From the IMG/VR virus record IMGVR_UViG_3300033153_004532, positions 1 through 34,401 of that record: DNA of 34,401 nucleotides. One strand, 5' to 3'. The first letter of the stretch is position 1. The number at the start of each line of letters is the position of its first letter. Below are positions 22,163 through 34,264 of this stretch, one piece after another. This stretch comes from a virus. The translations under genes were made by a program, and so were the position numbers. The notes under the pieces are model-generated. The model made no database searches. It worked only from the letters and a program-made list of their open reading frames with translations, and was not told where the DNA came from.

Positions 22163-22915
22163 ATGAAATGTAATATATGCAATAAAGAATTGAAGGACTA
22201 CAAAGGGCTTGCATGTCATTTAAGATATAAACATCCCAATCAAACTGGTAAAACTTACTACGATAAATTTCTAAAAAATCCCAATGAAGGATTTTGCCGA
22301 TTAGAAACCTGTAATAAAAAATGTACCTATATTGATTTAAGACTAGGATATTCTAAACATTGTTGTTCTAAGCATTCTGGTATTGATAAGAATACAAAAA
22401 ATGTAAGGGCTAAGACAAATAAGAAAAAGTTTGGTGTAAAGTTCCCCCAAAATCTTCCAGAATTTAGAAAGAAACAAGAAACGACTATGATGTCTAAATA
22501 TGGTTGTAAAACTCCTATGGGATCAAAAAAAATAAGGGAAACCCAAAAACAATCCATATTAAAAAAATATGGAGTTGATAATATATCACAATTGCCAGAA
22601 AACAGAAAAAAAGCAACTGATAAAATGAAAAAAACTATGATTAAAAAAGGCAGATGGATACCGAACAGTCAATTATCGGCATGGGATAAGTATAAAAGAA
22701 AAGTCAGACAATTAACTAATCATACCAAAAAATCCAAATTCTCCCTCAAACAATTATCTCGGACTGGTAGGTGCGGAGTTCCTAATGCTTTACAGGTTGA
22801 TCATATCTATTCAATAAAAGAAGGATTCCTTGATCAGAAAGAACCTGAATGGATATCTCGAATGGATAATCTACAATTAATTCCATGGGAAGATAACTTG
22901 GATAAACGATTATGA
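22163..22915 (+). CDS. HNH homing endonuclease with zinc finger and KYGV repeats
   Basis: 250 aa. An N-terminal C2H2 finger (C3, C6, H19, H24) is followed by a second Cys/His cluster (C45-H71). Residues 85-160 hold repeats of the type 'KxGVxxPQxLPEFRKKxxxTMxxKYG', probable DNA-contacting modules. The HNH core is at the end: QVDHIYSIKEGF (D213, H214), DNLQLIPWEDNLDKRL (N236, N245), with YKRKVRQLTNH before it, closely matching the endonuclease at 10926. Inserted just after the gp23 terminator; stop overlaps the next small gene. Confidence 0.82.
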   Translation: MKCNICNKELKDYKGLACHLRYKHPNQTGKTYYDKFLKNPNEGFCRLETCNKKCTYIDLRLGYSKHCCSKHSGIDKNTKNVRAKTNKKKFGVKFPQNLPEFRKKQETTMMSKYGCKTPMGSKKIRETQKQSILKKYGVDNISQLPENRKKATDKMKKTMIKKGRWIPNSQLSAWDKYKRKVRQLTNHTKKSKFSLKQLSRTGRCGVPNALQVDHIYSIKEGFLDQKEPEWISRMDNLQLIPWEDNLDKRL

Positions 22916-23088
22916 TTAAGCAATTTTCTATTGAATATTTAATAGAAAAGAAATCTTGTGTTTTTATAAGATGTGATAAATGCCCATTTGAACAATATGG
23001 TTTTGATATTAAGAATCCAACTGAATGTTATGATATTGGGATTAAAACATATATGAAACAACAAAAGATCAAGGCTATCCTAAAATGA
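22912..23088 (+). CDS. Tagged Cys-knuckle small protein (QQKIKAILK)
   Basis: 58 aa, coupled to the HNH gene by ATGA. Layout: SIEYLIEKKSC, then RCDKCPF (C21, C24), ECYDIGIKTYMKQ and the tail QKIKAILK. It is a close paralog of the proteins at 24130, 24947 and the first half of 32082, all with C-x2-C-P-F and a C-Y-x2-G-(I/V)-K-x-Y segment. No gene is coupled to its stop, yet the tail is intact, which argues the tail matters as protein. Function unknown. Confidence 0.75.
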   Translation: MIKQFSIEYLIEKKSCVFIRCDKCPFEQYGFDIKNPTECYDIGIKTYMKQQKIKAILK

Positions 23089-23105
23089 TGTCCCTTTTTT
23101 TGTGC

Positions 23106-23113
23106 TATAAATA
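23106..23113 (+). promoter_or_regulatory. T4-type late promoter
   Basis: TATAAATATTGCCTAG after a T-tract (CCCTTTTTTTGTG), 33 bp before the ATG at 23147, which also has a strong AGGAGG ribosome site. Confidence 0.6.
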
Positions 23114-23146
23114 TTGCCTAGATAGACAGACAGGAGGTACTATTAT

Positions 23147-23506
23147 ATGGTACTAAAAATAAGAAATAGCTATGATAATAGCTGGGATATTATAGATAAT
23201 ATAAAATCAATCAAAAAATATGATGAGGATAAATTTTATTTTAAAAATCTCAAAGAAATAACAAATAGTGAAGGAATTCCAGATTTATCAAATTTGATTA
23301 TAACCAGAAAGGGTTGCCCAGAAGGTAATTTTCAATATGATAATATATATTACCCAGATAAAGATAAATGTACTTATGAAAAATTAAATAAAATGTTTAT
23401 GAAAGTAATTTTTGTTTCTTTTATTAATGAAACATACAAATATATAATATTTTTTAATAATGCATTTGCTTGTAATGACTCGGGCAAAACAATAGAAAGA
23501 TTATAA
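23147..23506 (+). CDS. Hypothetical late protein
   Basis: 119 aa, strong ribosome site (CAGGAGGT) and a late promoter upstream; the next sigma70-type promoter starts directly after its stop, so it is a one-gene unit. The sequence is hydrophilic at first (KKYDEDKFYFKNLKEITNSEG) and more aromatic/hydrophobic later (MFMKVIFVSFINETYKYIIFFNNAF). No domain is recognised. Confidence 0.55.
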   Translation: MVLKIRNSYDNSWDIIDNIKSIKKYDEDKFYFKNLKEITNSEGIPDLSNLIITRKGCPEGNFQYDNIYYPDKDKCTYEKLNKMFMKVIFVSFINETYKYIIFFNNAFACNDSGKTIERL

Positions 23507-23513
23507 TTAAAAT

Positions 23514-23542
23514 TTGACTTAATATCCATTTCATTATATAAT
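23514..23542 (+). promoter_or_regulatory. Sigma70-type promoter of accessory region
   Basis: TTGACT (23514-23519), 17-bp spacer, TATAAT (23537-23542). It heads the long run of overlapping small ORFs to about 26.2 kb. Confidence 0.8.
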
Positions 23543-23572
23543 ATATCATAATAAAAATTGGAGGAAATATAT

Positions 23573-23755
23573 ATGGATATTTCAAATATAATAATAATAT
23601 GTATTTGGGTTTTTATAACCACTATAACATTACTTGATAAAAAATGCCCTAAATGGGTCAAGTTTAATATGGCAACGGCTAGTATAACAATAATACTTTC
23701 ACGGTTGCATATCATGAAACTGGGCGAAAAACTAGCAGAATTTGTTAGTAAATAA
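23573..23755 (+). CDS. Small membrane protein, two predicted segments
   Basis: 60 aa from the ATG at 23573, 9 nt after GGAGG; an in-frame TTG at 23558 is less likely. Residues 3-22 (ISNIIIICIWVFITTITLL) form a clear transmembrane helix and 35-48 (MATASITIILSRLH) a weaker one. First gene after the promoter at 23514. Function unknown; small early membrane proteins often act in superinfection exclusion or host inhibition, but nothing here proves it. Confidence 0.6.
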   Translation: MDISNIIIICIWVFITTITLLDKKCPKWVKFNMATASITIILSRLHIMKLGEKLAEFVSK

Positions 23756-23756
23756 A

Positions 23757-23939
23757 ATGAGTTTTAAATCAACAAGACCCTTCTGGGCATATTTTGGTGG
23801 AGCATGTGTTATATTTGCATTCTTTTTTGGTATTGGACAATGTGCAAAACTTATTGATTCTGGTATGAACCAAGTTAAGATTGAAAAAGAAAAAACAAAA
23901 CAATTAGAAATTAAACTAGAAATAGAAAAATTGAAGTAA
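23757..23939 (+). CDS. Small membrane-anchored coiled-coil protein
   Basis: 60 aa, ATG one base after the previous stop. Residues 9-27 (FWAYFGGACVIFAFFFGIG) form one transmembrane helix, followed by a charged amphipathic helix (MNQVKIEKEKTKQLEIKLEIEKLK) likely to be a coiled coil on one side of the membrane. Function unknown; it may pair with the preceding membrane protein. Confidence 0.6.
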   Translation: MSFKSTRPFWAYFGGACVIFAFFFGIGQCAKLIDSGMNQVKIEKEKTKQLEIKLEIEKLK

Positions 23940-23944
23940 TTAAA

Positions 23945-24133
23945 ATGAAAAAGAAAATATATAAAACAGAAATTTTGGCATTTGATGGCAGCCCTACTAA
24001 TACGGGTATGCAGGAAGAAATTAATGATTTTATAAAAGATAAAACTGAAGTCATCAATGTATCAACTTCCGTATCAAGCGGTGGAATGCTTGGCGGTGGT
24101 TGTGTTATAGCAACAATTTTATATAAAGAATGA
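23945..24133 (+). CDS. Small conserved protein, Cse60-like pattern
   Basis: 62 aa. The arrangement KTEILAF..., EEINDFIKDKTEVINVSTSVSSGG..., VIATILYKE (strand, helix with N-x2-F, strand, strand) is like a widespread small family found in phages and Firmicutes (Cse60-type), with E-x-x-(V/I)-N-x-F-(I/L). Function unknown. Its stop overlaps the start of the next gene. Confidence 0.55.
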   Translation: MKKKIYKTEILAFDGSPTNTGMQEEINDFIKDKTEVINVSTSVSSGGMLGGGCVIATILYKE

Positions 24134-24303
24134 AAAAACATAGCATAAAATATATGATGGGTAAAAAATCTTGTGTTTTAATAAAATGTAGCGAATGCCC
24201 ATTTAGAGAACTTCGTCGTGATTCCATCGGTCCTCATAATTGTTATAATATTGGAGTTAAAAAATATTTGAAACAAAAGAAGATCAAAGCTATCCTGAAA
24301 TGA
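24130..24303 (+). CDS. Tagged Cys-knuckle small protein (KQKKIKAILK)
   Basis: 57 aa, ATGA overlap with the preceding gene. Layout SIKYMMGKKSC, IKCSECPF (C20, C23), NCYNIGVKKYLKQ and the tail KKIKAILK. Very similar to the proteins at 22912, 24947 and the first half of 32082, so these four are close paralogs. Four cysteines (C15, C20, C23, C38) could bind one metal ion. Confidence 0.75.
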   Translation: MKKHSIKYMMGKKSCVLIKCSECPFRELRRDSIGPHNCYNIGVKKYLKQKKIKAILK

Positions 24304-24341
24304 AGAGATATAAAAAATGTCCCCAAATATTAAAGAAATAG
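24300..24341 (+). pseudogene. Micro-ORF resembling a deleted tagged cassette
   Basis: Thirteen codons, MKRYKKCPQILKK, starting at the ATGA of the preceding gene. It retains a KCP and an ILKK but nothing between, as if a Cys-knuckle gene had lost its middle. It overlaps the next gene in another frame. It may still be translated as a coupling peptide. Chance cannot be excluded for so short a frame. Confidence 0.35.
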
Positions 24342-24517
24342 CCCAAGATTATAAAATATGTACTAATGATTATAATCCCAAACAGTTTTTTGACTGTGAT
24401 AATTGCTCTGTTTATGCAATAAAAAAACAAGCAAAGAATGGTGTTTACTATACTAGATGTAAGGATATTTTCAAAAAAGCTATTAAACAATGGAAAATTG
24501 ACGAAATACTAAAATGA
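24317..24517 (+). CDS. Tagged Cys-knuckle small protein (KQWKIDEILK)
   Basis: 66 aa. Cysteines C15, C27, C30 (FDCDNCSV) and C48 (TRCKD) form a C-x2-C-S variant of the family knuckle; the tail is WKIDEILK, with A replaced by E as in several others. Start chosen at the ATG after AGAGATATAAAAA; the ribosome site is poor, so coupling through the micro-ORF at 24300 may help. The stop overlaps the next start. Confidence 0.65.
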   Translation: MSPNIKEIAQDYKICTNDYNPKQFFDCDNCSVYAIKKQAKNGVYYTRCKDIFKKAIKQWKIDEILK

Positions 24518-24771
24518 AAGGATTATCAAAACAAGAATCATTAGAAATGTATATTAGAACAGATGGTAAATGTTATGATAAGATGAGTAAACATTTGGCC
24601 GAAAAATGTTATTGTGATATATGTTATTTTTGTGACAAAAATAACATATGTAAATTTTATAGATCAATTAATATTTTTGGGAAAGGTAGTGATAGAAACT
24701 CACGCAATAAAAAAATAGTAACAGCAAAAAGGTATTTGAAACGAATAAAGATCAAGGCTATATTAAAATGA
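24514..24771 (+). CDS. Tagged Cys-rich small protein (KRIKIKAILK)
   Basis: 85 aa, ATGA overlap. Cysteines cluster as KCYDKM, KCYCDICYFCDKNNIC, so more than one metal site is possible. A basic linker (KGSDRNSRNKKIVTAKRYLK) leads to the tail RIKIKAILK. Largest of the simple knuckle proteins in this cluster. Function unknown. Confidence 0.65.
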   Translation: MKGLSKQESLEMYIRTDGKCYDKMSKHLAEKCYCDICYFCDKNNICKFYRSINIFGKGSDRNSRNKKIVTAKRYLKRIKIKAILK

Positions 24772-24950
24772 AAAACAATTGTCCATATTTTAAAAAAGAT
24801 GGAAATTTGACTGGATGCATTGCACAATTATCTAGCAAACCTAAGCTTTTATATCCTTGTTGGTCTAATGATTTTCTAAGCGCAAGACATAAAGAATGCC
24901 CAGATTATATAAAAATGAAACATATTAAGATCAAGGCAATATTAAAATGA
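24768..24950 (+). CDS. Tagged Cys-containing small protein (KHIKIKAILK)
   Basis: 60 aa, ATGA overlaps on both sides. NCPYFKK at the start, GC, PCW and ECPDY follow; the C-P-Y-F element recurs at 34037 and 25801. Tail HIKIKAILK. Likely a divergent subgroup of the family in which the CP precedes rather than follows the other cysteines. Confidence 0.65.
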   Translation: MKNNCPYFKKDGNLTGCIAQLSSKPKLLYPCWSNDFLSARHKECPDYIKMKHIKIKAILK

Positions 24951-25135
24951 AATATACTATGAAATTTATGATTGACCGGGGCGATTGTGTTTGTCATCAT
25001 GATAATGATTTTTCAATAGTATGCAATAATTGTCCTTTTGAAGATAAGGTATCAACTGAAGTAGGAAAATGCTATGATAGGGGCATCAAAAAATATAAAG
25101 AAAAACAAAAGAAGATCAAGGCTATATTAAAATGA
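24947..25135 (+). CDS. Tagged Cys-knuckle small protein (KQKKIKAILK)
   Basis: 62 aa. MKFMIDRGDCVC, VCNNCPFED (C-x2-C-P-F), KCYDRGIKKYKEKQ and tail KKIKAILK: the canonical layout, close to 22912, 24130 and the N-terminal half of 32082. The lysine codons of the tail include AAGG, the probable ribosome site for the next ATGA. Confidence 0.75.
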   Translation: MKYTMKFMIDRGDCVCHHDNDFSIVCNNCPFEDKVSTEVGKCYDRGIKKYKEKQKKIKAILK

Positions 25136-25362
25136 AAAAACAACCCAAATCCTTTTATTTAATAAGAGATAAAAAAACTAAAAAATATGTAACATCAAAA
25201 GGATGGACAAACCCAGGCCATATAAGAAACTCAGGCTGGTCAAATTTGAATTGTGAAGTTGTCGAGTTTGAATTACTAGAAAAAGAATCGACTCCAATGA
25301 ATATTTTTAAAAATAAAAAGGTTTATGAAAAGAATAAAAAGATTAAAGCTATATTAAAATGA
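25132..25362 (+). CDS. Tagged small protein without cysteine knuckle (KNKKIKAILK)
   Basis: 76 aa, ATGA overlap. The body (SFYLIRDKKTKKYVTSKGWTN, WSNLNCEVVEFELLEKE) looks like a small beta-rich domain of a type seen in other phage hypotheticals; only one cysteine is present. It still ends KKIKAILK. This combination shows that the tail is shared by unrelated bodies. Confidence 0.65.
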   Translation: MKKQPKSFYLIRDKKTKKYVTSKGWTNPGHIRNSGWSNLNCEVVEFELLEKESTPMNIFKNKKVYEKNKKIKAILK

Positions 25363-25592
25363 CCCTCCACGAAGAAATGCAAATATTAAATTTAATGATA
25401 AAAGGATTTAGTTGTTGGTATATACAAAACAAACTATTTACAAATTTTGGATGTGGGGAAAAAATATGTCCAGTCTATAAAGAATGTAAATTTGATGATA
25501 ATGCAAATTATCATACAGGTCATCATGCAAAGCCCATGGCAAAGAAAATATTGAATCGAATTAAAATAAAAGAGATATTAAAAAATGAATAA
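25359..25592 (+). CDS. Tagged Cys-containing small protein (NRIKIKEILKNE)
   Basis: 77 aa, ATGA overlap. Cysteines SCWY, GCGEKICPVYKEC provide C-x3-4-C-P; histidines in YHTGHHAKP could also bind metal. The tail RIKIKEILK is followed by two extra residues (NE), because the reading frame runs past the ATG of the next gene. Confidence 0.65.
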   Translation: MTLHEEMQILNLMIKGFSCWYIQNKLFTNFGCGEKICPVYKECKFDDNANYHTGHHAKPMAKKILNRIKIKEILKNE

Positions 25593-25785
25593 AAAACTAT
25601 CCCCAGCAATGTCAGGAATTGTCGCATTATTAAGAGCCCTTATTGGGTTTGGATTAATATCATTATCATTATTTAAAATGAATATGATTTATGGATTATG
25701 GTTGAACGATTTTTGGTGGCTTGTATCATCATTGTGTTTAATATATAGTGGATGGTTCTTCAGAAGTATTAAAGATTATTCCTAA
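25585..25785 (+). CDS. Small membrane protein
   Basis: 66 aa overlapping the preceding gene by 8 bp. Two hydrophobic segments (about 9-30, MSGIVALLRALIGFGLISLSLF, and 40-58, FWWLVSSLCLIYSGWFF) predict two membrane passes with both ends on the same side. No tail and no knuckle. Function unknown. Confidence 0.6.
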   Translation: MNKKLSPAMSGIVALLRALIGFGLISLSLFKMNMIYGLWLNDFWWLVSSLCLIYSGWFFRSIKDYS

Positions 25786-25793
25786 GACTCATA

Positions 25794-25801
25794 TATAAAT
25801 A
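25794..25801 (+). promoter_or_regulatory. TATAAATA box, doubtful late promoter
   Basis: TATAAATATGGGC overlaps the ATG at 25801, leaving no room for a leader unless the ATG at 25810 is the start. Possibly a chance match. Confidence 0.25.
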
Positions 25802-26016
25802 TGGGCATGAGTTATGAGAAATGCCCTTATATAAAAGAGTGTAAGAATTATGAAAAAAATAATATTTATATATTAACCGATGAAGAAATATGTGATATAT
25901 CATCAAGGCATAATAAGACAAATGAAAACGGAAGTATATGTAGAATTTTCTTAAAAATCCAAAGAGACAAGCTGGAAAAGAAAAAGAAAATTCTATCTAT
26001 ATTATTGGATGACTAG
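25801..26016 (+). CDS. Small Cys-containing protein, divergent tail (KKILSILLDD)
   Basis: 71 aa; the ATG at 25810 (MSYEKCPY...) may be the real start. KCPYIKECKN near the N-terminus, then EEICDISSRHN and ICRIFLKIQ, end in KKKKILSILLDD, a divergent form of the family tail. It overlaps the next gene by 8 bp. Probably a distant member of the tagged family. Confidence 0.55.
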   Translation: MGMSYEKCPYIKECKNYEKNNIYILTDEEICDISSRHNKTNENGSICRIFLKIQRDKLEKKKKILSILLDD

Positions 26017-26212
26017 ATTACAAAAACTAAAACATTTATTATCAATAGATTTTGATTGTGGGCCATATACATTTGATTGTGATGTTTGCCCAATGCAAGA
26101 TCCATGTTTTATCCCATTTGGCAAGTATGTTAAGAATTCGGTACAAAATCGTTTAAAAGATTTAACCCATAACGAAATCAAAAAAATCAAAATTGCCCAT
26201 ATATTAAAGTAA
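26009..26212 (+). CDS. Tagged Cys-knuckle small protein (KKIKIAHILK)
   Basis: 67 aa. TRLQKLKHLLSIDFDCGPYTFDCDVCPMQDPC gives a four-cysteine knuckle with C-x2-C-P-M; the tail is IKIAHILK. Last gene of the first small-ORF run: the stop TAA is followed by 244 bp without a supported gene, so here the tail cannot serve a coupled start. Confidence 0.65.
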   Translation: MTRLQKLKHLLSIDFDCGPYTFDCDVCPMQDPCFIPFGKYVKNSVQNRLKDLTHNEIKKIKIAHILK

Positions 26213-26400
26213 CAGTTCTAATGCGGTGTTTTATTAAAAGGCCTGTGCGCCATTCCAAAAAGATTACCCCGCATTTAACACCGCTACTACATCATGAGCT
26301 TCGTATCCACAAAAAGTTACACCGTATCAAAATAGGGGTCGATCCGTTTTCCGGCGGCTTCTCTGGGTGTTAAATCCGTATTAAAAAAATTCAATAAAAA
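26213..26400. other. GC-rich noncoding island with internal repeats (possible structured RNA or gene remnant)
   Basis: Bases 26221-26380 have 72 G/C in 160 (45%), against roughly 25% in neighbouring coding DNA. GCGGTGTT (26223-26230) pairs with AACACCGC (26277-26284); AATGCGG (26220-26226) could pair instead with CCGCATT (26269-26275). CAAAAAGATTACCCCGCAT and CAAAAAGTTACACCGTAT are imperfect direct repeats. A 50-codon frame (26221-26373) exists but has no ribosome site and odd codon use. Strand and nature are undecided. Confidence 0.4.
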
Positions 26401-26402
26401 GC

Positions 26403-26431
26403 TTGATCTGGATCGGTTCTAATGATATAAT
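26403..26431 (+). promoter_or_regulatory. Sigma70-type promoter, twin of 29961
   Basis: TTGATC (26403-26408), 17-bp spacer beginning TGG(A)TCGGTTC, TATAAT (26426-26431). The promoter at 29961 has the same hexamers and nearly the same spacer, and both transcripts begin with a CCCAAA(A)TTGAAGGA leader. Confidence 0.8.
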
Positions 26432-26483
26432 ATAGTAATGAAAAAAAGCATTATAAATGCCCAAATTGAAGGAGTTGCCCAAA

Positions 26484-26723
26484 ATGAGAAGTTTTGTGAG
26501 ACATACAAAAAATTTAAAATATCATAATGGAATCGTATTTTCATATGATACCCCAGTTGCCCGAATTGTAGACAAACGATATTTAGTTTACTACCCAAAA
26601 TATGTAAAATATTCCCATACCACTAGCGAACATGTAAATTATGCCGCTGGCCAATTAGGGCTAGAATTAGTATTGGATATAAAGAAATTAAAATCCTCAA
26701 AAATTAAGGCGATTTTAAAATGA
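26484..26723 (+). CDS. Tagged protein, DUF8033-like pattern (KSSKIKAILK)
   Basis: 79 aa from the ATG at 26484, 9 nt after GAAGGAG; an ATG at 26457 lies upstream of that site and is unlikely. The body (GIVFSYDTPVARIVDKRYLVYYPKYVKYSHTTSEHVNYAA) matches a small beta-rich phage and archaeal virus pattern: SY-x-T-x-VA, then YS-x-TT-x2-H-x-N. The tail is SKIKAILK. The stop overlaps the next start. Confidence 0.65.
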   Translation: MRSFVRHTKNLKYHNGIVFSYDTPVARIVDKRYLVYYPKYVKYSHTTSEHVNYAAGQLGLELVLDIKKLKSSKIKAILK

Positions 26724-27124
26724 AAAAATTACATGATAAAGGTATAATTGATACTTATAAAATGTACCAATTAGAATACTACAAAAATGATTGGTCAGGA
26801 CGTATGATGTCCAATTATAACGGATATATTTTAATTCCCAAAGGACATAAATGGGAAAATAAAATTTTTTATGAAATGGATTATGAACAAAAAGGTTATA
26901 TAGAATTAAATATCCATGGTGGTTGTACTTTTGAGCAAACCAAAGACGGTAACCATTGGATAGGATTTGATACCTCACATTATGGGGATACTGCTATTAC
27001 AAAATCATTGGATTTTGTGAAAAAAGAATGTAGAAGGATAGTGGACGAATTAGGCACTCATCCAAAAAAATTAAAAATAAATAAAATATTAATGGTTTGT
27101 TTAAGAACCATATTAGGAGATTAA
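26720..27124 (+). CDS. Conserved phage protein with HGG...GFDTSHYGD motif
   Basis: 134 aa, ATGA overlap. The sequence NGYILIPKGHKWENK, ELNIHGGCTFEQTKDGNHWIGFDTSHYGD and FVKKECRRIVDEL is a pattern common in unannotated phage proteins (NGYV.IP..HP, HGGxT, GFDxxHxGD, YVxxEC). The His/Asp-rich motif suggests a metal or active site, but no activity is known to me. The end LKINKILMVCLRTILGD contains a tail-like KINKIL followed by extra residues. Confidence 0.65.
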   Translation: MKKLHDKGIIDTYKMYQLEYYKNDWSGRMMSNYNGYILIPKGHKWENKIFYEMDYEQKGYIELNIHGGCTFEQTKDGNHWIGFDTSHYGDTAITKSLDFVKKECRRIVDELGTHPKKLKINKILMVCLRTILGD

Positions 27125-27126
27125 AA

Positions 27127-27513
27127 ATGGATATAATATTAGGATTAACAATATTTGTAGGAATAATAATGTTTATTGCTGGTTGTGCCGAAACAGATTA
27201 TAGGTCATTAGTTCCCATTGGTGGAGCAATGACTAGTTTATTGATGATATGGATGATAGTAGGATGCAATAATGTAGATAAAATTTCTAATAAAGTAAAT
27301 CATGATATAATTGAATTGAAAAACGGTGATATAAAACAGCAGATATTTTTTGATTCCGATGACGATGTTAGGACAGTTAAAGATGCCGATGTAAAAGGAA
27401 TTTTAATCAATCCAAATAAACATCAAGTCGTTGAGATATTATCAAGTGGAGTATGGTCTTATGGAATATATTTTATAACAACTGATAATAGTTTTTATAT
27501 AACAAATAAATAA
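27127..27513 (+). CDS. Membrane protein with N-terminal hydrophobic hairpin
   Basis: 128 aa from the ATG at 27127, preceded by TTAGGAGATTAAAA. Residues 3-21 (IILGLTIFVGIIMFIAGCA) and 33-51 (IGGAMTSLLMIWMIVGCN) are hydrophobic; the first ends in AGC and might be a lipoprotein signal, though the lack of an N-terminal Lys/Arg argues against it. The C-terminal 75 residues form a soluble domain (VKGILINPNKHQVVEIL). Function unknown. Confidence 0.55.
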   Translation: MDIILGLTIFVGIIMFIAGCAETDYRSLVPIGGAMTSLLMIWMIVGCNNVDKISNKVNHDIIELKNGDIKQQIFFDSDDDVRTVKDADVKGILINPNKHQVVEILSSGVWSYGIYFITTDNSFYITNK

Positions 27514-27514
27514 A

Positions 27515-27913
27515 ATGAAAAGAAAATATACCGAAAAACAGATAGAAAAGTATTTTATGAAACATAAAAAGAGATGGATGGATGATGATAAAAGTAAAAA
27601 ATGTCAAAAAACATTTGATAAACTTTTTTATATATTCCCAACTATTGTAGTTTTATTATCAGTTGGTAATATATGGATACAAAATTTTACAGTCTCGTCG
27701 ATGCTGTATTTTTTTGTAGTAGCAATTAATGGATTTAATATTTATAATTTGATTATAAAAGGTAAAATTTCACAAATGAAGTGCGATATTACTATGATAG
27801 ATTATCAGAATATGCAAATTGCCCATGCAAAAAAAGAAAGTCCAAAAAGATTTATTGATTTATTAAAAGAAAAGATTAATAAAAAGGACAAAATAAAAGC
27901 TATTATAGGTTAA
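27515..27913 (+). CDS. Tagged membrane protein (KKDKIKAIIG)
   Basis: 132 aa. A basic N-terminus (KRKYTEKQIEKYFMKHKKRW) leads to two hydrophobic segments (about 37-55, LFYIFPTIVVLLSVGNIW, and 62-82, SMLYFFVVAINGFNIYNLII); the rest is cytosolic-type helix ending KINKKDKIKAIIG. The presence of the tail on a membrane protein shows it is not limited to Cys-knuckle bodies. No gene is coupled to its stop. Confidence 0.6.
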   Translation: MKRKYTEKQIEKYFMKHKKRWMDDDKSKKCQKTFDKLFYIFPTIVVLLSVGNIWIQNFTVSSMLYFFVVAINGFNIYNLIIKGKISQMKCDITMIDYQNMQIAHAKKESPKRFIDLLKEKINKKDKIKAIIG

Positions 27914-27919
27914 ATAACC

Positions 27920-27927
27920 TATAAATA
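27920..27927 (+). promoter_or_regulatory. Late-type box inside overlapping palindromes
   Basis: TATAAATA within ACCTAT-AA-ATAGGT, itself overlapping AGGTTA-AA-TAACCT; 18 bp before the ATG at 27945. Weak as a promoter because of the short leader, but the symmetry is notable. Confidence 0.45.
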
Positions 27928-27944
27928 GGTATAAGGAGAACGAT

Positions 27945-28261: not shown

Positions 28262-28462
28262 ATGAGTGTAAATTATATAGGCGAGAACCCAGAGAATTAT
28301 TGGATCTTGCATTTTGATGAAAAAATAAGATATTTTTTCGATGATATTGAAGATGCCAATCTGGCATTAAAAGAATCTGAACAGAATAGTGATCTCCCTT
28401 GGATATTAACTAGGCTAACAGATTTTGGAATTTGGTGTAAAGATTATGAACCAGAATATTAA
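28262..28462 (+). CDS. Small acidic hypothetical protein
   Basis: 66 aa, aromatic and acidic (NYWILHFDEKIRYFFDDIEDANLALKESEQNSDLPWILTRL). RBS AGAAGGATA. It overlaps the start of the next gene by 17 bp in another frame. No domain is recognised. Confidence 0.5.
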   Translation: MSVNYIGENPENYWILHFDEKIRYFFDDIEDANLALKESEQNSDLPWILTRLTDFGIWCKDYEPEY

Positions 28463-29093
28463 GAAGTTTTTGGGACATGTTACATCAATTTGTTTGGAAC
28501 ATAATGTGTCTTTAAGATTAGAATATGATGATCAACTAGTTGATGGAGATCCTGATGAAAAAAATCCCTGTATGGTCAGTGGTTATTTTTCAGAAATAAC
28601 AGGACAAAGAGAATTAGCTGTTGCCACTAAAAAACAAACTGAAAGGTGGTTGGGAGTTTTGGTACATGAGTTTTCTCATATGGAACAATGGTTAGAAAAA
28701 GCCAAACCGTGGGCGAGATTAAAATCTTTATATAGTAAGAAAGGAGATGCTTGTCAGACTTATTTTAAATGGGTCGAAGGAAAAAGAGTTGAGAAGAGCA
28801 TTGCTATAAGGTCTGGAAAATTGGTAAGAGATATGGAATTAGATTGTGAAAAAAGAGCAGTTAAAAATATTAAAAAATGGAAATTACCAATTCCCATTAA
28901 TGAATATATCAAAAATGCTAATGCTTATATATTGTTTTATGCCCATACTTTTAAACATAGAAAATGGTGCAATATTAAATCTCCATACAATATCAAGAGA
29001 ATTATAAATATAATGCCAGAAGAATTTTTAGATAATTATGATGTATTAGAACCAAAATATGAGGAACTAGTAAATTTATATTGCGTGATATAA
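28446..29093 (+). CDS. Putative zinc metallopeptidase (HEFSH)
   Basis: 215 aa from the ATG at 28446. WLGVLVHEFSHMEQWLE places an HExxH zinc motif at residues 74-78; MELDCEKRAV further on (about 139-148) could give the third ligand or be structural, as in the HExxH...E families. Mostly soluble and helical. Such phage proteins are annotated as putative metallopeptidases without known substrate. An earlier TTG at 28425 is in frame but overlaps more. Confidence 0.65.
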   Translation: MNQNIKKFLGHVTSICLEHNVSLRLEYDDQLVDGDPDEKNPCMVSGYFSEITGQRELAVATKKQTERWLGVLVHEFSHMEQWLEKAKPWARLKSLYSKKGDACQTYFKWVEGKRVEKSIAIRSGKLVRDMELDCEKRAVKNIKKWKLPIPINEYIKNANAYILFYAHTFKHRKWCNIKSPYNIKRIINIMPEEFLDNYDVLEPKYEELVNLYCVI

Positions 29094-29094
29094 G

Positions 29095-29829
29095 ATGAAA
29101 ATATTATTAACAACTGATTCCCATATGGGATTCTCACAAAAAACATACCAAATCCTTGAGAAAAAATTAAAGGAAATAGATCATAATAGTTATGATATAG
29201 TTGTGCATTGCGGAGATTGGATATCACATAAACAATCACAATGGAAAACTGTACTTAAATTATTCAGAAATTATATCGACAAGCCTATTTTGGGAGTAAC
29301 TGGAAACCATGATTTATGGGACGCAGAACAACAGTTTTTATCATTGGAAGACGTACAGAAATATCATCTTGAAATGTTCAAAAAATACGATATACATTAT
29401 TTAGAAAGAAATCCATATATTAAAGATAACATATCATTTTACGGGTTCAACGGATGGTATTCAAATACTAATCCACCATCAAATGACTGGATGAGAATAC
29501 CAAATAATCCCCCTAGAGATTTAAACAAAATACTAAGGAATAATGCTCATAGAAGGTTGCAAGAAATTTTGATACAATCAGAAAAAGATACAAACCAAAA
29601 AATTTGTATTACCCATGTTTCTTCTTTGCCTTATAGAAATTCGTATATAAAAGATGATTATTCTATGGCAGCCAATCCAAAATATAAAAATATGATTGCT
29701 GATGTTTTTGATTTTTATTTTATGGGACATTCCCATCTCGTAGTACAGGAACTTCATCCTTCAGGATGTGGTATGATAAATGCTGGATCTGATTATGATC
29801 AGCCAAAATTCATGATAATTGAATTATAA
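29095..29829 (+). CDS. Calcineurin-like metallophosphoesterase
   Basis: 244 aa. All motifs of the family are present in order: D-x-H (TDSH, D8/H10), GDW (40-42), GNHD (70-73), a later TH (CITHVS) and GHSH near residue 215. These residues bind two metal ions and hydrolyse phosphomono- or diesters. Substrate unknown; phage members may act on nucleotides, DNA ends or RNA. It follows the metallopeptidase-like gene by one base and ends the unit before the palindrome-rich region. Confidence 0.85.
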   Translation: MKILLTTDSHMGFSQKTYQILEKKLKEIDHNSYDIVVHCGDWISHKQSQWKTVLKLFRNYIDKPILGVTGNHDLWDAEQQFLSLEDVQKYHLEMFKKYDIHYLERNPYIKDNISFYGFNGWYSNTNPPSNDWMRIPNNPPRDLNKILRNNAHRRLQEILIQSEKDTNQKICITHVSSLPYRNSYIKDDYSMAANPKYKNMIADVFDFYFMGHSHLVVQELHPSGCGMINAGSDYDQPKFMIIEL

Positions 29830-29874
29830 GAAATATGGGAAATTCAAGGAATTTAGTGAAATATACGAAATTTA

Positions 29875-29917
29875 GTCAAATTTGACCGAATTCGGACATA
29901 TGTGTCAAAATGACACA
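29875..29917 (+). promoter_or_regulatory. Cluster of three inverted repeats upstream of a promoter
   Basis: GTCAAATTTGAC (29875-29886), CCGAATTCGG (29886-29895) and the hairpin TGTGTCA-AAA-TGACACA (29901-29917) lie end to end. Just upstream, AATTTAGTGAAAT and AATTTAGTCAAAT form a direct repeat. Candidate operators, or a weak terminator through the third repeat with the T-run at 29926-29932. Confidence 0.5.
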
Positions 29918-29960
29918 AATTTCACTTTTTTTGAAAAAATGAAAAAAAGTCGAATTTTCC

Positions 29961-29989
29961 TTGATCTGGGTCGGTTCACATGATATAAT
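29961..29989 (+). promoter_or_regulatory. Sigma70-type promoter, twin of 26403
   Basis: TTGATC (29961-29966), 17-bp spacer TGGGTCGGTTCACATGA, TATAAT (29984-29989). Shares hexamers and most of the spacer with 26403, and is preceded by the palindrome cluster. Confidence 0.8.
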
Positions 29990-30027
29990 ATGTCATAGAA
30001 AATAACCCAAAATTGAAGGAAATATTG

Positions 30028-30246
30028 TTGAAAATAAAGATAAAATCCCATAAAAGTAAAATTGATTTTTGGTACAAAGATCACGTCGGAAAAATTTTAG
30101 AAGTGTATAAAAGTGCTAGCAGTCTGGGGTTATTTTTTCTTACAAAAAAATCAATCAAAAAAATGAGATTAAATTCTTCTCTTTTTTATCCAATAAAAAG
30201 AGATGATTGTAATTCTCTAAAATTACTAAAATTAAGGATATTTTAA
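30028..30246 (+). CDS. Small basic hypothetical protein (TTG start)
   Basis: 72 aa with TTG at 30028 as the likely start, 7 nt after AAGGA; a TTG at 30025 or 30013 is possible. The body (SHKSKIDFWYKDHVGKILEVYKSA) resembles small phage proteins with a WYKD-x2-G-x2-(F/L)-x-V element. It ends SLKLLKLRIF, only faintly like the tail. First gene after the 29961 promoter. Confidence 0.5.
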   Translation: MKIKIKSHKSKIDFWYKDHVGKILEVYKSASSLGLFFLTKKSIKKMRLNSSLFYPIKRDDCNSLKLLKLRIF

Positions 30247-30247
30247 T

Positions 30248-30718
30248 ATGATAACATCAGAATTTATTAAAGCTGGGAAAGCAGTTTTTACTATTAACAA
30301 CCCACAAGGTAAATATTTTACCTACAAAATAAACAAAAAAGTTTTTAAAGAGAATGGGAAAGAAACTACTCTCTTTTTCGCTATGGTTAAAAAAGGCCAA
30401 AATTGGTTTGATTATAAATACATTGGAATTTATAATCCTGAAAAAAACAAAGTCTTTACTGGAATAAAATCAAATTTTCAGTATAATAGTATTGAATATA
30501 AAGTCCTTGATTGGGCTCTCAAAACTATTGATAGAGCGACCGATATTCCTAAAGGATATGAAATTCGACATGAAGGAAAATGTGGAAAATGTGGCAAAAG
30601 ATTGACTACTCCAGAAAGTCTGGAATATGGCATCGGCCCAGAATGTATCAAACGTCTTCACGGCGATCTCAAAAAGAAAGTCCAAAGAATTAAAAAAATT
30701 AAAGCGATATTAAGATAG
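30248..30718 (+). CDS. DUF6011-type zinc protein with tag (RIKKIKAILR)
   Basis: 156 aa. The N-terminal 100 residues form a beta-rich domain. RHEGKCGKCGKRLTTPESLEYGIGPECIKRL (107-137) is the DUF6011 pattern (H108, C112, C115, C133 as likely zinc ligands) found in many phage proteins. The C-terminus KVQRIKKIKAILR carries the KIKAILK-type tail appended to this unrelated domain, with no coupled downstream start (the next ATG is 8 bp after the stop). Confidence 0.75.
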   Translation: MITSEFIKAGKAVFTINNPQGKYFTYKINKKVFKENGKETTLFFAMVKKGQNWFDYKYIGIYNPEKNKVFTGIKSNFQYNSIEYKVLDWALKTIDRATDIPKGYEIRHEGKCGKCGKRLTTPESLEYGIGPECIKRLHGDLKKKVQRIKKIKAILR

Positions 30719-30726
30719 GAAACAAA

Positions 30727-30912
30727 ATGAAATTAGACGAAAAACTTTTAAAAAAAATTGACAAATTTGTCAATAGACTTAAGATCGAAACTGTAAGAAG
30801 TTGGATGGTGAACGGAAAACATGTCAAAATTATTAAAGATAAATTTGGTATGAGTGTTCCTGATTTTAAAAAATATACCAAAGAAATAACCGATAGAATG
30901 CTATCAAATTAG
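30727..30912 (+). CDS. Small helical hypothetical protein
   Basis: 61 aa, charged and helical (LDEKLLKKIDKFVNRLKIETVRSWM, VPDFKKYTKEITDRM). VRSWMVNGKHVKIIKDKFGMSVPDFKKY could be a helix-turn-helix-like segment, but this is only suggestive. Its coding DNA contains the perfect 16-bp palindrome TTGACAAATTTGTCAA at 30758-30773. Confidence 0.5.
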   Translation: MKLDEKLLKKIDKFVNRLKIETVRSWMVNGKHVKIIKDKFGMSVPDFKKYTKEITDRMLSN

Positions 30913-30939
30913 AATTATATTAAAAAGGAGAAAATTAAT

Positions 30940-31434
30940 ATGAGTACATTATCAAGAGTAATTGACGAAATTACCAAATTAAATGTTGGGGAGAAAACCT
31001 CTTACAAAATCATCAGTACCAATTTAGGTTGGAAAACTCATTGTGGACGTTTAATCCATAAGGAAATTAAACCTCATTGGGACGGAATAATTGAAGAAAA
31101 ACGCGAAGGACGTAAAGTCTTTATGCACGTTATCGGCGATCCTACTCCGTTAAAAAGTTTGATTGCGGATGAAGTCGCAACAAAATCTAAAATTAAGGCT
31201 GAGAATAAAGCTTTAAAAGATCAGATTAAAAAAGAGCAAAAAGAATCGGGTGAGCCGATCAAAAAAGCTGCTAAAAAATCTGGTGGCGCTTCAAAACCTA
31301 AGGCTAAAAAGTCCAAAAAGAAAATATCTGTAAAAGATATTATGGACGATACTCCCGTGGTTGAGGAAGAACAAGAACCAGCTAAAACCATTGACGATCA
31401 GTTCGATGATTTTATGTCAGACGTTAAAGAGTAA
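30940..31434 (+). CDS. Hypothetical protein with Lys/Ala-rich linker and acidic tail
   Basis: 164 aa, strong ribosome site (AAAAGGAGAAAATTA). Residues 1-70 (SRVIDEITKLNVGEKTSYKIISTNLGWKTHCGRLIHKEI) look like a small folded domain; 80-125 are Lys/Ala-rich and flexible (AAKKSGGASKPKAKKSKKK); the end is acidic (EEEQEPAKTIDDQFDDFMSDVKE). Codon choice is less A-rich than the neighbours, which may indicate high expression. A DNA-binding or virion role is possible; no family is recognised. Confidence 0.55.
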   Translation: MSTLSRVIDEITKLNVGEKTSYKIISTNLGWKTHCGRLIHKEIKPHWDGIIEEKREGRKVFMHVIGDPTPLKSLIADEVATKSKIKAENKALKDQIKKEQKESGEPIKKAAKKSGGASKPKAKKSKKKISVKDIMDDTPVVEEEQEPAKTIDDQFDDFMSDVKE

Positions 31435-31456
31435 ACTTTAACCCAAAATTAAATCA

Positions 31457-31488
31457 GTATTGGTTGGGTTCGACTCCCATCCAATACA
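31457..31488 (+). ncRNA. tRNA-like minihelix (acceptor stem + T arm only)
   Basis: GTATTGG (31457-31463) pairs with CCAATAC (31481-31487). Inside lies TTGGG-TTCGACT-CCCAT, a T-arm-like hairpin with four of five pairs and the complete T-loop consensus TTCRANY, closing G-C included; A follows as discriminator but no CCA. D and anticodon arms are absent, so this is not a functional tRNA gene. It lies in a 63-bp gap, 10 bp before an ATG lacking a ribosome site. Confidence 0.45.
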
Positions 31489-31497
31489 AATACAAAA

Positions 31498-31680
31498 ATG
31501 ATAAAATACATAATACATACTATTGGATCGGGAATAACATCCTTCATCTCATGGGCGATATTTAAGATATTTTTATATCAAGAATTTTTAACATGGGAAT
31601 CCATTATAATTGTATCTATTATTATGGGAATTCTTAAAGGAATTTCAAAATATATAATGGACAAACGAAATGTTAAATAG
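31498..31680 (+). CDS. Small membrane protein
   Basis: 60 aa. Two hydrophobic segments (about 4-25, YIIHTIGSGITSFISWAIFKIF, and 34-52, ESIIIVSIIMGILKGISKY) predict two membrane passes; the end is basic (MDKRNVK). No Shine-Dalgarno is visible before the ATG; the tRNA-like hairpin ends 10 nt upstream and might influence initiation. It overlaps the next start. Confidence 0.55.
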   Translation: MIKYIIHTIGSGITSFISWAIFKIFLYQEFLTWESIIIVSIIMGILKGISKYIMDKRNVK

Positions 31681-31882
31681 AAAAGAATTTTTTAAACTAC
31701 TTGATAAAAGCCATGAAAGTTTTTATTATTGCGACAATATAATGTGCTATCAATGCCGATATAATGGGAACAATAATAAAATTTTGAAAAGTAACTGTAA
31801 TAGGTCATGGGGAGCAAAAGAAGTAAACAAATATTTATTACAAAAAGAAAAAGAATATAAAGTGGACTTAATTTTAAGATGA
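31670..31882 (+). CDS. Tagged Cys-containing small protein (EYKVDLILR)
   Basis: 70 aa, overlapping the preceding gene by 11 bp. YYCDNIMCYQCRYN gives C-x4-C-x2-C, with SNC further on; the tail KEYKVDLILR is a divergent form (K-V-D-L-I-L-R). First gene of the second run of coupled small ORFs. Stop overlaps the next start (ATGA). Confidence 0.6.
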   Translation: MLNRKEFFKLLDKSHESFYYCDNIMCYQCRYNGNNNKILKSNCNRSWGAKEVNKYLLQKEKEYKVDLILR

Positions 31883-32085
31883 ATAAAATAGAAAAATTAA
31901 AAGCTTTACTCTCTGCTGGCGGTAGTTGTTTCAACGTGCCTTTTCAGTGTCGTGAATGCCCATTAAGGCTTGATGATTTATGTAATGATAACATGTGGGT
32001 ACCAACTGATAAAGTTTTTGAAATGTCCACTAATTTACTAAACAGAATTAAAAAGAAAAAAAAAATAAAAGAGATATTAAAATGA
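31879..32085 (+). CDS. Tagged Cys-knuckle small protein (KKKKIKEILK)
   Basis: 68 aa, ATGA overlap. NKIEKLKALLSAGGSC, FQCRECPLRLDDLC gives a four-cysteine C...C-x2-C-P-L...C knuckle; the tail is KKKKIKEILK. Layout and the helical N-terminus match the protein at 26009. Confidence 0.7.
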   Translation: MNKIEKLKALLSAGGSCFNVPFQCRECPLRLDDLCNDNMWVPTDKVFEMSTNLLNRIKKKKKIKEILK

Positions 32086-32492
32086 AAAAATTGACAAAGG
32101 CTTTTATGATCGAGCGGAAACATTGTATGGCAATATTTAATGAAAGCGTGTCATGTGATAAGTGTCCTTTTTCGAGTAAAACTAATTGGGACGCAGAAAA
32201 TGATGATATTCCAGATTTAGTTCCCGCTAATATTTGTTATGCTATCGGTGTGAAAAAATATCGGGATAAACAAGAAAAAATTAAAGCAATACTAACCCCG
32301 ATATTGAAAAAAGAAGTAATATATAACGATATTTGTTTTGGGTACTGTAAAGATTTAAAACAATGGGATTGTCCTAATATCAATAAAACTGAAAATCATT
32401 GCGTTATTTGCCCAATAGCAGATGAATGTAATACTGATTTCCTAGATAAAAAATTGGATAAATTATATAAAATTAAGGAAATATTAAATTGA
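32082..32492 (+). CDS. Two-module fusion of tagged Cys-knuckle proteins
   Basis: 136 aa. Residues 1-73 are a full canonical member (MIERKHC, SCDKCPF, ICYAIGVKKYRDKQEKIKAIL), then, where a stop would stand, the frame continues TPILKKEVIYNDICFGYC into a second module (DCPNINKTENHCVICPIADEC) that ends with its own tail YKIKEILN. The first tail is thus preserved internally. Reads as a fusion of two adjacent genes by loss of the intervening stop/start. The next gene begins with TTG in a TTGA overlap. Confidence 0.75.
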   Translation: MKKLTKAFMIERKHCMAIFNESVSCDKCPFSSKTNWDAENDDIPDLVPANICYAIGVKKYRDKQEKIKAILTPILKKEVIYNDICFGYCKDLKQWDCPNINKTENHCVICPIADECNTDFLDKKLDKLYKIKEILN

Positions 32493-32677
32493 AAAATCCA
32501 AAATTAAATTATTTATTATATGCCATGCTCGCTAATATACTTTTCATATTATTTTTAGTTAGTATATGGGAACATAATATATTATTAATTGTCTTGACTG
32601 CTATTGGTACTTATTTTGCTACGAATAAAAGTGGTAAATTACAAAAAGAATTAAAAACGGATATTCAGAATGGATAA
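32489..32677 (+). CDS. Small membrane protein (TTG start)
   Basis: 62 aa, TTG start overlapping the previous TGA (TTGA), with AAGGAAATATTAAA as ribosome-site region supplied by the tail codons of the preceding gene. Two hydrophobic segments (about 9-26, LYAMLANILFILFLVSIW, and 29-44, NILLIVLTAIGTYFA). C-terminus charged. Function unknown. Confidence 0.55.
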   Translation: MKNPKLNYLLYAMLANILFILFLVSIWEHNILLIVLTAIGTYFATNKSGKLQKELKTDIQNG

Positions 32678-32705
32678 ATGTCCCGCCAAGGAAATATTAA
32701 AATGA
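32670..32705 (+). pseudogene. Micro-ORF MDKCPAKEILK, likely cassette relic
   Basis: Eleven codons and a stop, overlapping the end of the preceding gene and coupled by ATGA to the next gene. It contains the family CP and the tail KEILK with nothing between, as expected from an internal deletion of a tagged gene that kept the coupling signal (AAGGAAATATTAAAATGA). Confidence 0.45.
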
Positions 32706-32878
32706 ATAAGATTTATACCAAAGAACAAATGTATGAAAAAATTGCAAAAGATGAGCATTGCCGATGGATGAATTGCTCGATTTGTCCCTTTGACAGCTGT
32801 CATGGGTTCGGCGATTTTGAAAATGTATTGAAACGATCTAAAAAGTATGTTAAAATTAAGGCAATATTAAATGATTAA
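32702..32878 (+). CDS. Tagged Cys-knuckle small protein (KYVKIKAILND)
   Basis: 58 aa from the ATG at 32702, which sits in the ATGA of the micro-ORF and after AAGGAA; an upstream in-frame ATG at 32678 lacks a ribosome site. HCRWMNCSICPFDSCHG gives a four-cysteine knuckle; the tail is KYVKIKAILND, extended by two residues because the frame runs past the next ATG. Confidence 0.68.
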   Translation: MNKIYTKEQMYEKIAKDEHCRWMNCSICPFDSCHGFGDFENVLKRSKKYVKIKAILND

Positions 32879-33071
32879 ACTGAGATATAAAAATATAGAT
32901 TGGGCTTGTACCTCAAGTGGTTACTGGCAATGTAAATCGCTTGGCGACAATTGTAATGATTGTCCTTTACAATCTAAAGGAGATAAAGATTGTTCGAGGA
33001 CAATACCAGACAGTATGTTGCTCAAGATATACAACAATCGAATAAAAATTAAGGCGATAATGAATGGATGA
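32871..33071 (+). CDS. Tagged Cys-knuckle small protein (NRIKIKAIMNG)
   Basis: 66 aa, overlapping the preceding gene by 8 bp. WACTSSGYWQC, NCNDCPLQSKGDKDC gives C-x2-C-P-L with flanking cysteines; the tail is NRIKIKAIMNG, in which L is replaced by M because the ATG of the next gene overlaps it. Confidence 0.68.
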   Translation: MIKLRYKNIDWACTSSGYWQCKSLGDNCNDCPLQSKGDKDCSRTIPDSMLLKIYNNRIKIKAIMNG

Positions 33072-33297
33072 AATTAAATTAAATTCCAAAGGTAGAGAGA
33101 TATTAAAAACAATTATCCATAATGAAGGATCATGTCATATAAGATGTTCTGATTGCCCCATAAGGGGGATGGATTTAACTATTTGTAATCCAATTATAGA
33201 TCCAACTATAAAAATTCCATCAATAAAAAATTTATTAAAACTGGATAGGGAAGAAAGGCTGGTTAGATATAATAAAATAAAGGCGATACTAAAATGA
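33064..33297 (+). CDS. Tagged Cys-knuckle small protein (RYNKIKAILK)
   Basis: 77 aa, 8-bp overlap with the preceding gene. SCHIRCSDCPIRGMDLTIC forms the knuckle; a helical middle (IPSIKNLLKLDREERLVRYN) leads to the tail NKIKAILK. The stop overlaps the radical SAM start (ATGA), with AAGGCGATACTAAA as coupling signal. Confidence 0.7.
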   Translation: MDEIKLNSKGREILKTIIHNEGSCHIRCSDCPIRGMDLTICNPIIDPTIKIPSIKNLLKLDREERLVRYNKIKAILK

Positions 33298-33818
33298 AAT
33301 TAAGATTATTATTATTTAAAAAATGTAATAGAAAATGTATAAAATGTTGTAATAAAGGATGGGATCTTGATACTCTTGAAACTAATAATAGTTATAAAGG
33401 ATATTCTGAGATTTTATTAACTGGCGGCGAGCCATTGTTAGAACCCGATTTGATACAACAAATTGCAATTAGAATTCGGGTAGAAAATAAAGATGCTCCC
33501 ATCTATGTTTATACCGCAAAGGGTGATAATATTGATGATATGATAAAAGTTATGTCATGCGTGGACGGTATAACATTTACTTTACACGAACAAAAAGATG
33601 TTAAACCTTTTATAAAATTAAATGATTTCATGGAAAAATTCCTTCACCTTTTTGATTATCTCGGTAAACGTAAAAAACAATTGCGTCTTAATATTTTTGA
33701 AGGGGTGGATGTTGGAGATATTGATCTAAAATTATGGAAAGTTAAACCAAATATGAAATGGATTAAAAATTGTCCACTTCCAAAAGATGAAGTATTTAAA
33801 AAATTACAAAGGATTTAA
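33294..33818 (+). CDS. Small radical SAM protein
   Basis: 174 aa. KKCNRKCIKCCNK gives the C-x3-C-x2-C cluster motif (C11, C15, C18) that binds a [4Fe-4S] cluster and S-adenosylmethionine; ILLTGGEPLLE (40-50) is the GGEP SAM-amino-group motif. About the length of NrdG-type activases (T4 NrdG 156 aa), but the class II NrdJ here needs no activase, so the role is open: peptide or nucleotide modification are alternatives. It is coupled to the tagged gene upstream and lacks a clear tail (FKKLQRI). Confidence 0.8.
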   Translation: MKLRLLLFKKCNRKCIKCCNKGWDLDTLETNNSYKGYSEILLTGGEPLLEPDLIQQIAIRIRVENKDAPIYVYTAKGDNIDDMIKVMSCVDGITFTLHEQKDVKPFIKLNDFMEKFLHLFDYLGKRKKQLRLNIFEGVDVGDIDLKLWKVKPNMKWIKNCPLPKDEVFKKLQRI

Positions 33819-33819
33819 A

Positions 33820-34035
33820 ATGACAAAACAATTAACATTTGCAAAAGCTAGTTCTATTTTACGGAAAGAATATTTCTGTAAAGTTGAAAGAGTGGAACAA
33901 AATAGATATAAATTATCGTTTGAATATGAACCAGATAATAAAAATCAGGAATATATTGTTACCAAGAAAGGAGTGGCCGAAATTGTCCACAATTTTATTG
34001 ATATATTTGACGAAGAATTAATGTTGGAAAAATAA
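33820..34035 (+). CDS. Small hypothetical protein
   Basis: 71 aa from the ATG at 33820, preceded by AAAGGATTTAAA; an upstream in-frame ATG at 33787 lies inside the radical SAM gene and is unlikely. The body (LTFAKASSILRKEYFCKVERVEQNRYKLSFEYEPDNK, IVTKKGVAEIVHNFI) looks like a small alpha/beta fold. No family is recognised. Confidence 0.55.
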   Translation: MTKQLTFAKASSILRKEYFCKVERVEQNRYKLSFEYEPDNKNQEYIVTKKGVAEIVHNFIDIFDEELMLEK

Positions 34036-34036
34036 A

Positions 34037-34264
34037 ATGTGGACTAGAGATTATGATTGTCATGATATTGAAGAAATTAAAAAAGATATTAAACAATATG
34101 AAAAATGTTATACTTTTAATTGTCCATATTTTAATTGTTGTAAAAATGGAGACCCCAATTTAAAAGGTGGGGACTTCAACTTCATGGGATATAAGAATAA
34201 AAATATATGTAAAGATTATTTACAATTAAATAAACATAAAAAAATTGAGGCAATATTAAAATGA
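34037..34264 (+). CDS. Tagged Cys-containing small protein (KHKKIEAILK)
   Basis: 75 aa. CYTFNCPYFNCCKNGD and ICKDYLQLN place five cysteines with a C-P-Y-F element, similar to 24768. The tail is HKKIEAILK. The stop overlaps the next start (ATGA) with GAGGCAATATTAAA as coupling signal. Confidence 0.68.
   Translation: MWTRDYDCHDIEEIKKDIKQYEKCYTFNCPYFNCCKNGDPNLKGGDFNFMGYKNKNICKDYLQLNKHKKIEAILK

Follow-up and report, generated by a model that had tools for sequence, protein, structure and literature searches.

Several systems are known in which one short terminal peptide, carried by many proteins, directs them to a common place or machine. Among the closest is the capsid-targeting sequence (CTS) found on many unrelated internal head proteins of phage T4; proteins with this N-terminal peptide are taken into the head and cleaved by gp21. 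The SsrA and MuA-type ClpX signals are short C-terminal peptides recognised on many proteins, the likewise C-terminal cargo-loading peptides of encapsulins dock diverse cargo to one shell, and in the ankyrin/PRANC (F-box-like) proteins of poxviruses variable target-binding bodies are linked by one C-terminal element to a common machine. Here, we analyse a C-terminal peptide, in the following called the tail, which is shared by many small open reading frames (ORFs) on a 34.4 kb fragment of a T4-like phage (IMG/VR virus record IMGVR_UViG_3300033153_004532, positions 1 to 34,401; G+C 29.6%); this whole stretch is named the window. A first-pass annotation of the window had noticed the peptide and knew of no described system of this form; in agreement with this, we found no paper in the open-access literature describing such a shared C-terminal tail.

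Like the T4 CTS, the tail is a short terminal peptide on many unrelated phage proteins that would sort them to one place, and both signals occur in the same phages. However, the CTS labels virion proteins at their N-terminus, whereas the tail is C-terminal and is never found on CTS-like proteins: in the 642 kb huge-phage genome LR756502, a CTS-like N-terminus is present in none of the 123 tail proteins but in 128 of the 845 others. This phage appears to use two mutually exclusive address labels. From the SsrA and MuA-type signals the tail differs in being a ten-residue helix-face pattern, which tolerates one to five extra residues and has no Ala-Ala or RRKKAI end. Encapsulin peptides are extended and of the GSL type, whereas the tail is a basic amphipathic helix; the likeness to the PRANC proteins, which belong to eukaryotic viruses, serve a ubiquitin ligase and use a longer domain, is an analogy only. 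Finally, Imp1/PicA is, like the reader we propose for the tail, a phage factor selecting many phage proteins; unlike the tail-based mechanism, this import into the phage nucleus is described as independent of terminal signals (PMC13282480).

The tail probably acts as a transplantable docking helix, placed at the C-terminus of proteins and directed at one shared, putative cytoplasmic partner. Its last ~10 residues, which follow the pattern [KR]-x-x-K-[IL]-x-x-[IL]-[LG], would close a C-terminal helix, one face of which would fit a groove on this single partner; in this way, small accessory proteins outside the virion, which form a large and rapidly changing set, would be brought to one place or machine. 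A use as adaptor is plausible: the bodies, being variable, would recognise different targets in the host, with the tail delivering them to a common enzyme or hub. The docking itself and the singleness of the partner are what we infer from the patterns in the sequences described below.

The shared tail is confirmed, and the family is much larger than first noted. Two further virus records, G001 and G002, stem from the same phage: G001 overlaps the last bases of the window, G002 and G001 share 17.6 kb, and the array of tail genes extends beyond the window into G001. Taken together, the three records contain about 62 small ORFs with a C-terminal [KR]xxKIxxIL(K), which we call the phage's own tails. 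At the seven core positions, the counts out of 62 are K59, I58, K45, E32/A21, I62, L56 and K49, and a lysine or arginine precedes the core by three residues in 58 cases. The core motif occurred 52 times at a C-terminus and not once internally in 23,554 residues; the number of similar C-terminal 7-mer pairs was 1029, compared with 5-8 when the last 20 residues were shuffled, and with 9 in Campylobacter phage CPX. The motif sets were compiled by means of regular expressions and contain a few chance members (~1 expected per 75 by the internal rate); all tails counted in the own and the LR756502 sets lie 0-5 residues from the C-terminus.

The tail is spread over unrelated bodies. After its removal, the 62 own proteins formed 43 body clusters and the 387 distinct tail proteins of all phages formed 284, among which 240 are singletons. 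One own protein consists of a BRCT domain (residues 12-87) with the tail directly after it. The DUF6011 zinc protein named in the first-pass annotation was recovered with a match of 4e-12; its homologues from Sinorhizobium, Caulobacter and Agrobacterium phages and from a spring-water podovirus stop just past the zinc knuckle, whereas the DUF6011 proteins of the window phage and of at least four huge-phage contigs run on into the tail, so that here the addition of the tail is directly visible. A search of the Protein Data Bank (PDB) for folds similar to the DUF6011 model gave no significant match. Further bodies are a riboflavin kinase, whose domain stops 86 residues before the protein end, a BtpA-like protein with a tailless homologue in another huge phage, DUF1660, SH3-like proteins and many orphans; for one SH3-like tail protein and for a phrog_5643 body no matches in annotated phages were found. 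In the BRCT, DUF6011 and riboflavin kinase proteins, the tail comes after a complete domain. A search for the tail on further unrelated domains in other phages, which had been suggested as a check, thus came out positive.

These bodies bear on the idea that all tail proteins descend from one small zinc-knuckle protein, the tail being its slowest-changing relic without any shared partner. Paralogue groups of 9, 6, 4 and 3 members are real, and 52 of the 62 own tail proteins possess at least three cysteines, although some have none. In the window, at least three cysteines are found in 17 of 22 tail ORFs; the strict C-x2-C-P knuckle, however, is present in 9 ORFs and not in about 15 as first annotated, and a protein described there as DUF8033-like gave no DUF8033 match. 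The BRCT, DUF6011, riboflavin kinase, BtpA-like and membrane bodies have outside homologues of their own, and the predominance of singletons likewise speaks against common descent only, which we regard as quite improbable. Descent from a single family was rejected on the basis of the 284 body clusters and of the BRCT and DUF6011 cases, where unrelated folds stand ahead of the same tail.

The tail is conserved at the level of the protein. In orthologue pairs from huge phages it was kept in 30 of 32 partners (26 strict, 4 loose), and a loss of the tail from most homologous bodies, which the first-pass annotation had considered as evidence against a protein-level role, was not observed among these pairs. 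The ratio of nonsynonymous to synonymous changes in these pairs was 0.57 for the tail core, in which only 39 codons were comparable, versus 3.63 for the bodies and 7.33 for other tail positions; changes in the core are mostly synonymous, and equal frequencies of the two kinds, which would have counted against a protein-level role according to the first-pass annotation, were not seen. Tails of the IL and LGI types interchange between orthologues, which suggests that both may be read by the same partner.

The codons of the own tails have a second function not foreseen in the first-pass annotation, as they also supply the Shine-Dalgarno sequence for the gene that follows. In 38 of 62 cases, the tail overlaps the next start as ATGA; the core lysine K3 is encoded by AAG in 53% (background 17%) and the core glutamate E4 by GAG in 47% (background 14%), and the tail codons place AAGG or AAGGAG 8-10 bases ahead of the start. 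One might therefore see in these codons simply the ribosome-binding site of a translationally coupled gene, with the peptide as a by-product. This explanation is hardly credible: 24 of the 62 tails have no ATGA overlap, 18 of 56 ATGA junctions, among them those of an array of capsid-targeted proteins, have no tail, and the residues I2, I5 and L6 are unnecessary for a Shine-Dalgarno site. The prevalence of synonymous changes in the core argues in the same direction. Moreover, the tails of huge phages persist with another residue make-up and with near-background codons at most core positions; in LR756502, there is a drift to A-ending codons towards the C-terminal end. A ribosome-binding site cannot account for the tail, and the DNA-only explanation was rejected as main cause; it remains just an overlaid function in the window phage.

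The positions of lowest entropy are 0, 3, 4, 7 and 8 in both phage groups. They fall within ~140 degrees of the helical wheel and form a face of two basic and three aliphatic side chains. In the AlphaFold2 model of the protein encoded at 22912-23088, the tail ends a continuous helix of residues 36-57 (pLDDT about 83). Conservation as protein, restriction to one helix face and occurrence on unrelated bodies are the features of a protein-docking motif. A short, basic and aliphatic C-terminal helix could also target proteins to the inner membrane, as do the C-terminal helices of MinD or FtsA, but the basic positions 0 and 3 lie inside the conserved face instead of flanking it, aromatic residues are nearly absent, isoleucine and leucine are specifically retained, and position 1 is Asp, Asn or Glu in many huge-phage tails. 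We judge membrane targeting to be very improbable, marginally more so than common descent.

The genes of the tail proteins may be of the early type. Tail-gene regions contain a sigma70-like promoter in six copies (TTGATCTGGRTCGGTTnnnATGATATAAT and variants; TTGATCTGGRTCGGTT type; window 26403 and 29961; G001, G002), while late-type TATAAATA boxes are mostly found ahead of structural genes; because of this distribution, the few promoter sites suggest that tail genes are expressed early. The conservation of the repeated promoter extends well past its -35 and -10 boxes, and it may serve a phage regulator as binding site. In the window, late promoters of the T4-like type, TATAAATA, were seen at 4848, 9882, 12421, 13705, 16213, 17924 and 19591; ATAATATA often comes after them.

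For small, basic-hydrophobic tails on early-type accessory proteins with sigma70-like promoters, a C-terminal degron has to be considered, which would deliver the proteins, after a brief period of action, to an AAA+ protease of host or phage for clearance. Such a signal would explain why most tails run up to the stop codon, as do 52 of 62 own tails and 75 of 123 in LR756502. On the other hand, one to five extra residues follow the tail in ~16% of the own and in 33% of the huge-phage cases, which strict C-degrons do not tolerate; the conservation tracks a helix face over ten residues and not the final residues, and a riboflavin kinase and likely membrane proteins are among the tail carriers. 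We therefore regard a degron as unlikely, yet as the most serious competitor. The first-pass annotation had proposed a docking, localisation or degradation signal for one factor; a shared protein-level signal is borne out by the orthologue and substitution data (30/32; 0.57 versus 3.63), docking to one factor retains the conditional standing given above, localisation is a conceivable alternative, and degradation is less favoured.

Some observations weigh against the docking helix. The fraction of 84% of own tails ending exactly at the stop codon would also fit a degron, the wobble bias at core positions 3 and 4 implies that selection at the DNA level contributes in the window phage, and the tail helix of the DUF6011 protein was modelled at low confidence (pLDDT about 60). 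Furthermore, close relatives of the T4-like window phage were not found, so that the orthologue test was carried out with pairs from huge phages.

All 21 stops listed in the first-pass annotation for ORFs with KIKAILK-like ends are present, and the peptides are as described. The list was correct but incomplete: at least two weaker cases, the ORFs at 25801-26016 and 26720-27124, had been missed, and 118-261 is perhaps a third case. The features of the window are:

118-261: possible weak tail ORF, ends KIIEILK-KDE; may be a further case
5603..5854, + strand: tail ORF, 83 aa, ends KIKAILE
7513..7740, + strand: tail ORF, 75 aa, ends KIKEILK; between the two halves of an interrupted-looking ribonucleotide reductase (RNR) gene
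22912..23088, + strand: tail ORF with CxxCP knuckle, ends KIKAILK; C-terminal helix predicted for residues 36-57
24130..24303, + strand: tail ORF, CxxCP, ends KIKAILK
24317..24517, + strand: tail ORF, ends KIDEILK
24514..24771, + strand: tail ORF, ends KIKAILK
24768..24950, + strand: tail ORF, ends KIKAILK
24947..25135, + strand: tail ORF, CxxCP, ends KIKAILK
25132..25362, + strand: tail ORF, single Cys, ends KIKAILK
25359..25592, + strand: tail ORF, ends KIKEILK-NE
25801..26016, + strand: weak tail ORF, ends KILSILL-DD
26009..26212, + strand: tail ORF, ends KIAHILK
26403..26431, + strand: sigma70-like promoter TTGATCTGGATCGGTTCTAATGATATAAT, recurs in tail-gene regions
26457..26723, + strand: tail ORF, phrog_5643 body (8e-8), no Cys, ends KIKAILK
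26720..27124, + strand: ORF with KLKINKIL, similar to the tail, 11 residues ahead of the C-terminus; huge-phage homologue ends RYNKISQII
27515..27913, + strand: tail ORF, ends KIKAIIG; by inspection a membrane protein, with a hydrophobic hairpin
29961..29989, + strand: sigma70-like promoter, second copy, upstream of the DUF6011 tail gene
30248..30718, + strand: DUF6011 protein to which the tail KKIKAILR is added; in several other phages the homologues stop short of it
31670..31882, + strand: tail ORF, ends KVDLILR
31879..32085, + strand: tail ORF, CxxCP, ends KIKEILK
32082..32492, + strand: two-domain tail ORF; domain 1 ends in the internal KIKAIL, domain 2 in KIKEILN
32678..32878, + strand: tail ORF, CxxCP, ends KIKAILN-D
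32871..33071, + strand: tail ORF, CxxCP, ends KIKAIMN-G
33064..33297, + strand: tail ORF, CxxCP, ends KIKAILK
34037..34264, + strand: tail ORF, ends KIEAILK; the array goes on in G001

The comparison of DUF6011 proteins led to LR756502, in which 123 of 968 genes carry a tail, the types R[DEN]xK[IL]xxIL(x) and R[DN]xKLxxLGI combined. In this genome, 75 ORFs have R..[KR][ILV]..[IVL][LI] at most five residues from the end, where ~1 is expected from the internal rate, and 36 have a KLxxLGI-type end. Tails of the same types occur in LR745206 (635 kb). LR756504 (636 kb) possesses its own versions, RKxIIxELL on 33 bodies and RKxRIxNLNL on 11; these clusters are defined by the similarity of the last seven residues, and a few members may be due to chance. 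The related but distinct consensus of LR756504 suggests co-evolution with a partner, and the lineage-specific form of the consensus makes a phage-encoded partner more likely. An IMG/VR scan for the LGI-type tail matched many other contigs, often several times each.

For the own tail of the window phage, IMG/VR scans gave only records of the same phage and scattered single matches, a scan of genome contigs only single matches, one per stretch, and a search of IMG/VR with paralogue alignments the same phage only. The major capsid protein of the window is closest to proteins of Campylobacter Fletchervirus (~33% identity); relatives sought via this protein led to Campylobacter phages only, and these T4-like phages (CPX) have no tail. 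Likewise, no tail was seen in Sphingomonas phage PAU, in Tenacibaculum phages pT24 and PTm1 and in huge phages of 735 kb and 462 kb as sampled, nor in the 50 kb examined of Lak-C1, and the R..K pattern was not enriched in Phosso, CcrColossus and Atu_ph07. For Mahaphage-clade genomes, replication in Bacteroidetes is predicted (PMC7162821). As sampled, several Bacteroidetes and huge phages as well as CPX lack the tail, and it is not universal.

A bolder proposal, which we put forward tentatively and with clearly less confidence than the docking helix, is that recruitment is modular in some T4-like and huge phages: up to hundreds of small, rapidly replaced effectors would share a C-terminal docking helix read by a single co-evolving, phage-encoded hub. 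If so, any new small protein could join the takeover machinery by gaining ten residues. According to a 2026 review (PMC13282480), it is an open question what role the many small uncharacterised genes of jumbo phages play. The tail ties together a large share of small uncharacterised genes by one testable feature, namely 123 of 968 in the 642 kb phage and ~62 in the T4-like phage; identifying the partner would assign hundreds of orphan proteins a function in common. It would also provide a computed criterion for phage effectors and a portable ten-residue tag.

Regarding the CTS, an array of ~20 small T4 CTS-like proteins that start with MKFxEYIxE is present in G001 and G002, and also in the window at 9918, 18834, 19061 and 19209; the N-terminus of 128 LR756502 proteins is similar to this motif. 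Two other C-terminal peptides are shared as well in LR756501 and LR756500: five unrelated proteins end in DPYGEE[EN]W[SD][DE], and five CTS-bearing proteins in NADDFGF[FL]DN. A scaffold-like ORF of the window (19673-20437) ends in YDDFGEMMTYL.

The RNR gene of the window consists of two pieces (5858-7255 and 7737-8789) which, as read from the sequence, appear to carry the two halves, N- and C-terminal, of a split intein; between the pieces lie two ORFs, one of them the tail-bearing 7513-7740. Two ORFs (10926-11528 and 22163-22915) resemble HNH-type homing endonucleases by inspection, and one of them directly follows the major capsid gene. A small radical-SAM-like protein (33294-33818; Fer4_12 5.5e-4, just under the Pfam cut-off) lies within the tail array and has no tail. 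In LR756500, positions 13607-14634 contain AGAGATAGGAAATTTAACGAAAT tandem repeats at multiples of 69 bases, which probably encode a repeat protein.

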